Assembly (NCBI RefSeq): GCF_900188435.1
Contig: NZ_FYFA01000001.1
Location: forward strand, 1,240,001 to 1,304,000
Origin: Marinobacter sp. es.048
GTDB taxonomy: Bacteria > Pseudomonadota > Gammaproteobacteria > Pseudomonadales > Oleiphilaceae
Direction: 5' to 3'
Length of the DNA stretch: 64,000 bases
In this document: piece by piece, positions 9,156 to 13,077 of the stretch
How positions within the stretch are numbered: position 1 is the stretch's first letter
Layout of the letters: each line of letters starts with the position of its first letter
Translations under genes and position numbers: made by a program
Notes under the pieces: generated by a model
The model's input: only the letters and a program-made list of their open reading frames with translations
The model's database searches: none
What the model was told of the DNA's origin: nothing

Positions 9156-9184
9156 GGGGTCAGATGAAGCTTTCATCTGACCCC
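9156..9184. terminator. Bidirectional terminator hairpin between the RND pump and astE
   Basis: A perfect 12-bp stem (GGGGTCAGATGA, 9156-9167, pairing with 9173-9184) with a 5-base loop is followed by GTTTTT on the + strand. It separates two convergent genes. The palindrome reaches into astE: its left arm encodes the last astE codons and the stop. A related hairpin with the same GGTCAGATG core lies downstream of glcF. Confidence 0.75.
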
Positions 9185-10215
9185 GTTTTTGGCCGGATCA
9201 TCAGCCCGACTCGATGGCCGACCGGCACCTCCGGATTGGGAAACACAATCGCCTCCGGCGAATGCCCGACCCGGTAACTGGTCTCGTCGTCCTCCCAGAT
9301 GACTGTGCCGGGCTGATACTTGGTGAAATTGGCGACATCGTCCGGAATATGGAACCGGAAGTTCTTTCCGGTGTTCAGAATCTCATGCACCACCTCGAAC
9401 ACCGTCAGGTGATCAAACGGCGGCTGCGGGGAAGGTGAGGGCTGCCCCCGGAACCGCCGTCGCAAGGCATCCTGTATACCGGAAAAGTGCCCCAGATCAT
9501 TCTGCCCGAACGGCCGCACCTTACCCAGCTCCACGGTAAAACTCTCGGCTTTCAGCAGCGACGAGGAAAACGACGAAAACGTTGTGCCCGCCTTATGCTG
9601 TAGCAGAAGCGTCTCCACCTCCGCCTCCAGCAGAAAATCACACTGGTCTACTGGAACCGAACGATTCTCAACAAACGGATACAGGGCAAACCGCTCGCGG
9701 TGAGAAGGGCGAATGGCCGTGTGCAGATCGTAGTGGTAAAGCGCCTGAGGGTTGGCCATTGCAAACTGCCGACAGGCCTCCTCAAGCTCCTGCGCCCGCG
9801 CAGCCTCATCCAGCCCCTCATATTCGCTCCGCCCATGAGCACCATCGAACAGCCGGTTAAGGTTCACTTCCAGAAAGCGTTTTCCAGCCACCATCGCAGG
9901 TGGGTTACCCAGAATCAGCAAGACCGGGCAAGCCAGCTCCCATTCGCCATCAATCAGTTCGGCAACCAGTTTGTTCAGAACCTCGATAGGCGCTGTTTCG
10001 TTCCCATGAACACCCGCGGAAACGATGATGGCTTCAGCGTTCGGATTGCTCCGGCCAGCCGGAGGAATAATGTCCAGAACGCCCACGGCCTTGCGGCTTA
10101 TGCGGGTGCCGTCGGGGAGGAAGGTCTTGGTTTCGGGAAGTGACGCATCCGAGTTGTCGAGGGTGTGGGAAAGCCAGTCTGAACTAGTTCCGAACAGGTC
10201 ACGTTTTGCCGACAT
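9160..10215 (-). CDS. astE: Succinylglutamate desuccinylase
   Basis: This 351-residue enzyme performs the last AST step, releasing succinate and glutamate from N-succinylglutamate. It is a zinc carboxypeptidase-like protein: the metal ligands appear in SAGVHGNETAP (H70, E73) and YDLHTAIRP (H165). I choose the ATG at 10215, with GGGGA before it. The frame stays open to 10278, but that extension is encoded by the arm of an intergenic palindrome and does not look like protein. The last residues (GSDESFI) come from the terminator palindrome. astE is separated from astADB by the TetR-RND cassette and lies downstream of the importer genes. Confidence 0.93.
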   Translation of the reverse strand: MSAKRDLFGTSSDWLSHTLDNSDASLPETKTFLPDGTRISRKAVGVLDIIPPAGRSNPNAEAIIVSAGVHGNETAPIEVLNKLVAELIDGEWELACPVLLILGNPPAMVAGKRFLEVNLNRLFDGAHGRSEYEGLDEAARAQELEEACRQFAMANPQALYHYDLHTAIRPSHRERFALYPFVENRSVPVDQCDFLLEAEVETLLLQHKAGTTFSSFSSSLLKAESFTVELGKVRPFGQNDLGHFSGIQDALRRRFRGQPSPSPQPPFDHLTVFEVVHEILNTGKNFRFHIPDDVANFTKYQPGTVIWEDDETSYRVGHSPEAIVFPNPEVPVGHRVGLMIRPKTGSDESFI

Positions 10216-10237: not shown

Positions 10238-10347
10238 GGGCGGGCAGGGTATTGCCTCCCGGGAATGTCTGAAGCCATGGCTGGCTTCAGTCAAGCGCAC
10301 ATGGATGTGCTCGTAGCGGTTCCCGGGAGGCAATACCCTGCCTGCCC
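10238..10347. repeat. Intergenic cloverleaf-like palindromic element A
   Basis: Two long arms (10243-10264 and 10321-10342) are perfect 22-bp inverted copies; allowing one mismatch the pairing runs 26 of 27. Between them sit two smaller hairpins: CTGAAGCC/GGCTTCAG (10269-10276 with 10283-10290) and GCACAT/ATGTGC (10297-10302 with 10305-10310). As single strand this folds into a stem carrying two loops. It lies between astE and the permease gene, both on the - strand, and abuts the astE ribosome site. It resembles the short palindromic repeats scattered between genes in many gammaproteobacteria. Copy number elsewhere in the genome is unknown. Confidence 0.8.
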
Positions 10348-10373: not shown

Positions 10374-11402
10374 TCAGCCGTTGACGGGTCGCTGGTGCTT
10401 CAACAGATGGTTTTCGAGTTTGCGGAAGGCAAAAACCAGTATAAACGTGAGTGCCATATAGCAAAGTGCTACAAAGATAAACGCATCAAACGGCGCATAA
10501 AACCGGGAGTAAATGTTTCGTGCCGCCCCGGTCAGATCCACGATGGTCACCACACTGGCAATGGCACTGGCGTGCAGCATGAAGATCACCTCGTTGGAGT
10601 AGGCCTGCACCGCCCGCCGCGCTGCACTTGGCAACACAATCCGCCGCATGCGCATAAACCAGTTCATGCCATAGGCCTTGGCCGCCTCAATCTCACCGTT
10701 GGGCGTAGACACAATCGCACCACGGATAATCTCCGTGGTATAGGCCGCTGTGTTCAGTGTGAAAGCCAACAGGGCCAGATAGACAAACGCCACCGGAATG
10801 AAAAAGTGGAACGGCATGCGCTCCGCCTTGGCAGCTTCTTCAGCCACACGAACCATGTCCGTCAGGCCGATAATGGAAACCAGGGCGGTGGTCTTCAGCA
10901 GAACCTGCCAGTTGTTGCCCAGACCGGGCAGGGCATGGCGCATCATTTGTGGCAGCATGATTCTGCGGAAGGTATGAAAACGGGTAAAACCATAGGCTCG
11001 GGCAGCCTCGATCTGGCCGGTTTCAACGGCCAGGAAAGCCCCGCGGAAGGTTTCGGTCATATAGGCGCCGAAAATCAGCCCGATCGTTACTACGCCGGAG
11101 ATGAACGGGTCGAACTGGAAGAAAAAGTCGATTTCGTAGGCTTCCCAGACGTAATCCGAGAGCATATTCACTGCAACCTGGCCGCCATAGTAGAACAGCA
11201 GCATCATGACCAGGTCTGGAACGCCACGAATCAGTGTGGTGTAGGTAGTGGCGATACCTTTGGCAACCCGGCTTTGTGAGAGCTTGGCAGACGCGCCAAT
11301 CAGCCCCAGGGCAACCGAGAGGGCAAGAGACAGGAAGGCCAGTTCAATGGTGACTATTGCCCCTTCCATCAGGGCCGGGCCATAGCCTTTCAGATCAAGC
11401 AT
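10374..11402 (-). CDS. Basic amino-acid ABC permease: apparent HisQ-HisM in-frame fusion
   Basis: This 342-residue protein joins two permease halves. Residues 1 to about 210 match a HisQ/AotQ subunit: LSQSRVAKG, TTLIRGVPDL and the EAA loop GQIEAARAYGF at 129-139. From about 211 it reads as the C-terminal half of HisM/AotM: AFTLNTAAYTTEI, a second EAA loop GEIEAAKAYGM at 236-246, and AYSNEVIFMLH. The HisQ tail (about 20 residues) and the first 110 or so residues of HisM are missing, so a typical 230+235-residue pair has become one chain with about seven membrane helices. I use the ATG at 11402 (MLDLKGYGP, the usual HisQ start) rather than the GTG at 11441. It follows the binding-protein gene. 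Confidence 0.85.
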   Translation of the reverse strand: MLDLKGYGPALMEGAIVTIELAFLSLALSVALGLIGASAKLSQSRVAKGIATTYTTLIRGVPDLVMMLLFYYGGQVAVNMLSDYVWEAYEIDFFFQFDPFISGVVTIGLIFGAYMTETFRGAFLAVETGQIEAARAYGFTRFHTFRRIMLPQMMRHALPGLGNNWQVLLKTTALVSIIGLTDMVRVAEEAAKAERMPFHFFIPVAFVYLALLAFTLNTAAYTTEIIRGAIVSTPNGEIEAAKAYGMNWFMRMRRIVLPSAARRAVQAYSNEVIFMLHASAIASVVTIVDLTGAARNIYSRFYAPFDAFIFVALCYMALTFILVFAFRKLENHLLKHQRPVNG

Positions 11403-11453
11403 GGGAGCGTCCGGTAAGCAGGGGCGGCCCCAAAGGGCCACCCCTCGGCAGAT

Positions 11454-12206
11454 TTACATCTTGATGTCGTAAGCGAAGTACTTCTGCATGATGGTGTCGT
11501 AGGTACCATCTTCCTTCAGGGTACGAAGGGCAGCATTCACTTCCTCCGCAAGCTCGGTATCACGCTGGCGCATCGCAACACCCACGCCTTGTCCAAGCTT
11601 GACCGGCTCACCAACTTCCTTGAAGCCCTCTTTGGAAAGAACGGTTTCTTCACCCACCGGGTAATCTACGAAGACTACATCCAGACGCTGGCCTTCCAGG
11701 TCCAGAACCATGTCGTCCGCAGTGGTGTAACGTTTGATGGTGACAATGCCGCCCATGTTTTCCGTTACGTAGGTGTCCATGGTAGTGCCGCGCTGAACGC
11801 CAACGGTCTTGCCTTCCATCGCATCCATGTCGGTGACGTCGGTGTTGAAGCTCTCAGGGCCAAACCAGCCACCCGGGGTGTTGTAGTACGGTTCGGAGAA
11901 CAGAACCCGCTCCGCGCGTTCGGGGGTGATGGACATAGAGGACATGATCAGGTCGAATTTACGTGCCAGCAGGCCCGGAATCATGCCGTCCCATGCCTGG
12001 ATCACGAACTCGCAGTTGGCGCTCATTTCTTCGCACATGGCTTCGGCCAGTTCCACTTCGAAACCGGTCAGTTCGCCATTTTCGTCTTTGTACTCAAACG
12101 GGGCATAGGGCACGTCGAACGCGATTCGGAGATCCCGTTCCTGGGCCTGTGCGCCACCGGCAATCATGGCGAGGGCGCAGCTTGCTGCAACAATCATTTT
12201 CTTCAT
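11454..12206 (-). CDS. Periplasmic basic amino-acid binding protein of the ABC importer
   Basis: This 250-residue protein has a Sec signal peptide (MKKMIVAASCALAMIAGGAQ, cleavage after AQAQ likely) and the SBP_bac_3 fold: RIAFDVPYAPFEYKD, GFEVELAEAMCEEM, WDGMIPGLLARKFD, and VGVQRGTTMDTYV. It resembles AotJ, ArtI and HisJ, which bind arginine, ornithine, lysine or histidine. The neighbouring astE and the AST genes favour arginine or ornithine. It lies between the ATPase gene upstream and the fused permease gene downstream, and is likely the most abundant component. Confidence 0.92.
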   Translation of the reverse strand: MKKMIVAASCALAMIAGGAQAQERDLRIAFDVPYAPFEYKDENGELTGFEVELAEAMCEEMSANCEFVIQAWDGMIPGLLARKFDLIMSSMSITPERAERVLFSEPYYNTPGGWFGPESFNTDVTDMDAMEGKTVGVQRGTTMDTYVTENMGGIVTIKRYTTADDMVLDLEGQRLDVVFVDYPVGEETVLSKEGFKEVGEPVKLGQGVGVAMRQRDTELAEEVNAALRTLKEDGTYDTIMQKYFAYDIKM

Positions 12207-12306: not shown

Positions 12307-13077
12307 TCAGAAGTTGGGAGTCAGGAACTGCTTCATGCGCTCTGAATCCGGATGATCAAACACTTTCTCGGGGGTACCCTGTTCCTCGATCACGCCCTGA
12401 TGCAAAAACAGGACCTGACTCGAAACATCCCTTGCGAATGACATCTCGTGGGTGACCACGATCATGGTTCGGCCTTCCTCCGCCAGGCTTTGCATAACCT
12501 TGAGAACTTCGCCCACCAGCTCAGGGTCCAGAGCTGAGGTGGGTTCGTCAAACAGCATGACTTCCGGTTCCATGGCCAAGGCCCGGGCAATTGCCGCCCG
12601 CTGCTGCTGTCCGCCGGACATCTGGGCCGGGTAGTAATCCTTGCGCTCGTAGATGCCCACTTTGTTCAGGTAGGCTTCGGCGCGCTCGATGGCCTCCTTC
12701 TTGGGTACTTTCAGGACGTGGATCGGGGCTTCAATGATGTTTTCCAGAACAGTCATATGAGACCACAGATTGAAGCTCTGGAAGACCATGGAAAGTTTTG
12801 CCCGGATCAGTTCAACCTGTTTGTTATCGGCCGGAATACGTTCGCCCTTGCGGTTGGTTGTGAACCTTATTGGGTCACCGTGCACGATAATATCGCCGGA
12901 GGTGGGTGTTTCCAGCAGGTTGATGCAGCGCAGAAAGGTGCTCTTGCCCGAGCCGGAGCTGCCGATCAGGGAAACCACGTCGCCTTTGCGGGTCTCCAGT
13001 GAAATACCTTTGAGCACCTCGAGTTGGTCAAAGGTCTTATAAATGTCCCTGCAGATCAAAGGCGCTTGGTCCGCCAT
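12307..13077 (-). CDS. ATP-binding subunit of the basic amino-acid ABC importer
   Basis: This 256-residue ATPase (AotP/HisP type) shows a Walker A motif ([11 protein letters not shown]), ABC signature ([15 protein letters not shown]), and Walker B ([12 protein letters not shown]), then the H-loop [13 protein letters not shown] set the start at 13077 because AGGAGT precedes that ATG and [16 protein letters not shown] aligns with family starts; the frame extends 21 codons further upstream. Gene order ATPase, binding protein, permease differs from the Pseudomonas aotJQMOP order. A 100-base gap follows before the binding-protein gene, so that gene may also have its own promoter. Confidence 0.93.

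Follow-up and report, generated by a model that had tools for sequence, protein, structure and literature searches.

A hisQ-hisM fusion frame in a Marinobacter genome, probably the product of a recent private deletion

In Marinobacter sp. es.048, a single open reading frame runs from hisQ into hisM, the genes for the two permeases of an amino-acid importer, which raises the question of whether this importer has been condensed into one working chain or has been lost. A sequence-only reading of the locus had left room for a single-chain pseudo-heterodimer, a dead transporter, or an assembly collapse. The locus was analyzed within a window of 64,000 nucleotides, to which all coordinates refer, and compared with relatives in the genus, the class, and protein databases. 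The best explanation, held here with good confidence, is that a recent, private, in-frame deletion of 402 bp disables an importer of the HisJQMP/AotJQMP type, and that the open frame is incidental. This private loss is the most likely reading of the locus, with a new kind of transporter less likely.

The fused frame and its gene neighborhood

The hisQ-hisM (aotQ-aotM) fusion occupies positions 10374..11402 on the minus strand and is uninterrupted for 342 codons, from an ATG at 11402 to a stop at 10374; an upstream extension from a GTG start at 11441 is also open. Searched with separate profiles, residues 4-211 match the NCBIfam HisQ model (NF011714, profile positions 2-204 of 228) and residues 210-339 match the HisM model (NF011651, positions 105-234 of 237), confirming the original description of a nearly full HisQ that becomes the C-terminal half of HisM. 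From the profile matches and comparison with relatives, the hisQ-derived part (10770..11402, minus strand) comprises residues 1-211 of 234, with the final 23 codons and the stop absent, and the hisM-derived part (10374..10776, minus strand) extends from about residue 108/109 to residue 240, with the preceding part absent. Identity to the separate proteins in 80 Marinobacter-type loci is 82-99% for the HisQ part and 84-100% for the HisM part, and the fusion is therefore not a chance open reading frame.

Other elements of the sequence-only reading also held. Both EAA loops are retained, GQIEAARAYGF of HisQ at residues 129-139 (10986..11018, minus strand) and GEIEAAKAYGM of HisM at residues 236-246 (10665..10697, minus strand), and the first half of HisM is absent together with its RGTP-type motif, the HisM model being matched only from position 105 and RGTPLL being lost. 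A simple hydropathy scan gives seven peaks, in agreement with the seven helices predicted, and the fifth of these (residues 198-216) spans the join. The helix at the join would be a single hybrid helix, not two helices in tandem, consisting of what we take to be the start of HisQ TM5 and the rest of HisM TM3.

The gene cluster has the order hisP-hisJ-hisQ-hisM-astE, with the binding protein and ATPase upstream of the fusion and astE downstream, all three uninterrupted and on the minus strand. The substrate-binding protein (11454..12206, 250 aa) has the lysine/arginine/ornithine model TIGR01096 as its best match, with a score of 218.3 versus a curated cut-off of 256.35, and the HisP-type ATPase (12307..13077) best matches NF007908, with 377.9 versus a cut-off of 466. 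The astE gene (9160..10215, in a frame readable from 10278) encodes succinylglutamate desuccinylase of arginine catabolism. We infer from this setting an importer of the HisJQMP/AotJQMP type with basic amino acids as substrate, a qualified assignment because the best model match of the binding protein lies below its cut-off.

Promoter and terminator scans returned about as many candidates as in shuffled sequences. Around the start of astE lies a 28-nt inverted repeat (10238-10265 and 10320-10347, 96%) with 54 nt between its arms; it is at least partly present at the same place in the relatives compared, and its 23-base core occurs genome-wide in only these two copies when up to three mismatches are allowed. 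Situated between hisM and astE, the repeat is perhaps a regulatory hairpin.

Origin of the join and its occurrence among relatives

Measured between the hisQ start and the hisM stop, the region is 1431 bases long in M. maroccanus (L036) and 1029 in the fusion genome. Compared with close Marinobacter relatives, the missing 402 bp are exactly 23 hisQ codons, the stop, a 3-base spacer, and 109 hisM codons, which supports the origin first proposed, a deletion of roughly 400 bp. The flanks remain well aligned with the closest four relatives, with 92-93% identity on the hisJ-hisQ side and 90-91% on the hisM side. The closest relatives have hisQ and hisM in one common frame, and a loss of 402 bp, a number divisible by three, preserves it; what remains is therefore a single open frame. 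A motif script was able to place 79 of 109 loci tried, and in 58 of these the two genes share a frame, with some genomes possibly counted twice.

Scoring of the breakpoint against the six closest relatives places the join at ORF nucleotides 619-639, and at 626-634 in most of the six, with estimates from more distant relatives scattered over 618-639 and one locus (L045) not in register. This scoring and a repeat scan in relatives define the breakpoint interval as GGCCCTG (10770..10776, minus strand). The motif is common to the hisQ tail and hisM, with all 7 bp shared in three of the five relatives scanned, 6 bp in M. maroccanus, and 3 bp in L039. Pairs of exact 7-bp repeats abound in these genes, numbering 118-150 in each of five relatives, so the repeat at the join says little about mechanism; it would be compatible with slippage or end joining, of which it proves neither, and microhomology was rejected as proof on the same grounds. 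In locus L045 (1472-2131), from a metagenome-assembled Marinobacter, hisQ ends after 219 residues versus 234.

In the course of events that we infer, 402 bp spanning the hisQ 3' end and the 5' half of hisM would have been deleted from the hisP-hisJ-hisQ-hisM-astE cluster of a Marinobacter, with the breakpoint at the GGCCCTG common to both sides in most relatives scanned. The product would consist of nearly the whole of HisQ, to which the EAA loop and the final two helices of HisM are attached, and loss of the importer would be the most likely effect because the HisM half of the membrane pathway could not form.

An artefact of sequencing or assembly, in which both genes are whole in the strain itself and the 402 bp went missing from its sequence, is unlikely. 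The fusion is known from a single assembly and has a short repeat at its join, but the assembly (4,063,301 bases) consists of two large contigs of 2.39 and 1.68 Mb and is 99.98% complete, and the genes flanking the fusion are uninterrupted. Assemblers usually work with overlaps or k-mers far longer than this repeat of at most 7 bp, which would not be expected to collapse an ordinary assembly. The presence of an intact hisM elsewhere in the genome had been named as a point to check, and none was found: no close copy of the missing first half of hisM was detected in the 4.06-Mb genome, and the search for a second hisM gave other matches of only 27-34% identity, one of them the HisQ part of the fusion itself, so a spare intact gene was rejected. 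Three other amino-acid permease loci are present, the first adjoining a GlnH-like binding protein, the second consisting of a pair whose neighboring binding protein belongs to the wider family, and the third encoding two long permeases (395 and 362 aa).

A search with whole HisM matched 122 of 124 genus genomes, the fusion genome included, with completeness of 62% and 72% for the two unmatched genomes. In 120 of the 122, the match spans the full length of HisM (residues 1-3 to 238-240) uninterrupted by a stop, so loss of hisM is not commonly tolerated. The exceptions are the fusion genome (residues 106-240) and G035 (residues 50-238), where the hisM start lies in a different frame from the remainder of the gene (L026, 2209-2932), reflecting either an independent lesion or a sequencing error. 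The junction DNA, used as a query, was matched in 117 of the 124 genus genomes; among the matches listed, the whole 161-base query was covered only in the fusion genome, and the next best match covered bases 1-91. Of 36 other genus genomes, 35 have two separate matches to the fusion, and the remaining one (62% complete) has none of that grade. All 80 loci from another genome collection have the kept part of hisM 1042-1046 bases away from the hisQ start, versus 642 in the fusion genome.

The titles of those 80 loci name Marinobacter in 79 cases and a Halomonas MAG in one. The best segment of the latter (L062, labelled Halomonas sp. MAG) is 94% identical to the fusion query, and a protein named from Vreelandella utahensis (P0205) is 83% identical to Marinobacter HisM; either mislabelled bins or transfer could account for these labels.

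Beyond the genus, 34 genomes of a class sample of 143 (the fusion genome included) have any match, and no other match runs the query length. A few extend beyond the join, as far as residue 237, or span it with a gap (104-316 and 105-296), the two gapped matches being only 318 and 255 bases long. At the protein level, 5.8 billion proteins were searched and 8000 candidates scored; no fusion appears among the 120 homologs listed, all of 233-247 aa, and the best database protein among the candidates scored covers 62% of the fusion query. Likewise, a HisM profile search with a length window open to 342 aa listed matches of 230-241 aa only. No HisQ-HisM fusion was found reported in literature titles and abstract openings, a weak negative as subscription papers were mostly outside this scope.

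Among the genomes examined, the deletion is private to the fusion genome. Recurrence of the fusion in related genomes had been raised as a check, and it is absent from the rest of the 124 genus genomes and from all 80 loci. The sequence-only reading had also recognized that many homologs of exactly this length would mark an established family, and none of 342 aa were found in the genus genomes, the 80 loci, or the 120 listed proteins. An established family of short single-chain permeases, to which these searches lent no support, is thus extremely improbable and was rejected on the genus, class, locus, and protein searches: the fusion genome is alone among the 122 matching genus genomes, two separate matches are the rule in the others, two-gene spacing is seen throughout the 80 loci, and the listed proteins have the length of single permeases.

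Loss of function or a working single chain

The lost half of HisM holds 15 of 39 columns that are invariant in an alignment of nine HisM sequences from several genera, RGTPLL included. By contrast with this loss, the HisQ part is without one of 42 invariant columns in an alignment of eight HisQ sequences. A simple hydropathy scan of the intact HisM of M. maroccanus detected four helices, where we would expect five, and its peaks at residues 33-51 and 74-92 are both gone from the fusion. The BPD_transp_1 domain is found in the fusion in two stretches (124.8 bits versus a gathering score of 26.4), one of them whole and the second covering profile positions 55-180 of 184. Because HisM residues 1-109 are lost, and with them the 15 invariant positions and two hydropathy peaks, the fusion does not contain two whole permease domains. 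The working pseudo-heterodimer suggested at the outset is accordingly unsupported, and the dead transporter named as its alternative is the better fit. An AlphaFold model was poor (mean pLDDT 45.6, pTM 0.33, from a shallow single-genus alignment) and was set aside as evidence; a first alignment for this model had been dropped, as it placed HisM fragments onto the HisQ half at 39-47% identity.

Against six close relatives, dN/dS of the HisQ part is 0.030-0.043 and that of the HisM part 0-0.022, values within the range among those relatives or below it (0.010-0.063 for HisQ and 0.010-0.040 for HisM). Across the 336 kept codons compared in seven sequences, the fusion genome has 18 private codons with an amino acid found in another sequence and a single private amino acid. 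Decay is absent from the kept codons, and many more amino-acid changes would be expected if the gene had been free of constraint for much of the divergence time, which leaves a young deletion or a fusion product still under selection. As an arbiter between the two, dN/dS was rejected. A young deletion is favored because it is private to one genome and because a conserved half of HisM has been lost.

The chief rival holds that the fusion may still import basic amino acids, with the HisQ part homodimerizing, in the manner of arginine importers that have a single kind of permease, and the HisM helices carried as an appendage, or through another pairing, and it is quite unlikely. It draws on the near-complete HisQ part, on the absence of protein-level decay, and on the best solved relative, PDB 4yms, presumably a homodimer. 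The arginine importer of B. subtilis is also tabulated, as a prediction, with two copies of ArtQ (PMC11466899). The kept frame (1 in 3 by chance), both EAA loops, and the lack of a damaging change count against loss, and would also be expected of a working fusion. However, the fusion occurs in one genome only, with no second case in 124 genus genomes, the matches from 143 class genomes, or 120 listed proteins; HisM is kept at full length nearly throughout the genus; and youth accounts equally well for the absent decay. Continued import of basic amino acids by this seven-helix chain of 342 residues, one permease whole and the other halved, for example as a HisQ-type homodimer, is very unlikely. 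If such a chain were active, it would show that the first two HisM helices can disappear in one step, and a two-permease importer could collapse to a single chain by one mutation. As found, the locus adds a further case to the private in-frame deletions that join neighboring paralogs, and it is useful mainly as a caution that neither an open frame nor retained motifs prove a working protein.

Comparison with known permeases

The fusion is closest to HisQ/HisM and AotQ/AotM, the paired permeases of importers for basic amino acids, which it resembles in the best models for both halves (NF011714 and NF011651), in its EAA loops, and in its neighbors, a binding protein, an ATPase, and astE. It differs in being one chain, with 23 residues lost from the end of HisQ and 109 from the start of HisM. 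Coverage of both models is incomplete in comparison with the intact proteins of loci L036 and L037, ending at HisQ profile position 204 versus 224 (from position 2 in each) and beginning at HisM position 105 versus 21 (to position 234 in each). The fusion scores 300.6 with the HisQ model (cut-off 319) and 241 with the HisM model (cut-off 306), and the intact controls are also below these cut-offs, with 273.4 and 275.9 for HisQ and 233.5 and 231.8 for HisM; the curated cut-offs were therefore rejected as a test of membership. As a type I importer permease, the fusion has a BPD_transp_1 domain above the gathering score and EAA loops. As a conserved fusion family, it is represented in one of 122 genus genomes, in none of the 80 loci, and in none of the 120 listed proteins.

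The same genome encodes two natural single-chain permeases, ThiP and an unassigned protein, which likewise have two BPD_transp_1 stretches per chain but are 563 and 562 aa long versus 342 aa for the fusion. ThiP is above the cut-off of TIGR01253 and below the cut-offs of other ThiP models, and the 562-aa permease has PhnU2 as its best model, far below cut-off. Of the 184 profile positions, the stretches cover 3-164 and 5-170 in ThiP, the second of them scoring below cut-off, and 3-181 and 2-174 in the 562-aa permease, each at least 160 positions, whereas the second stretch of the fusion, at 55-180, falls short of the two near-complete domains of a ThiP-like chain. Among solved structures, the amino-acid permease of PDB 4yms aligns with the HisQ part over residues 3-211; its chain of 220 aa, unlike the fusion, carries no appended half permease.
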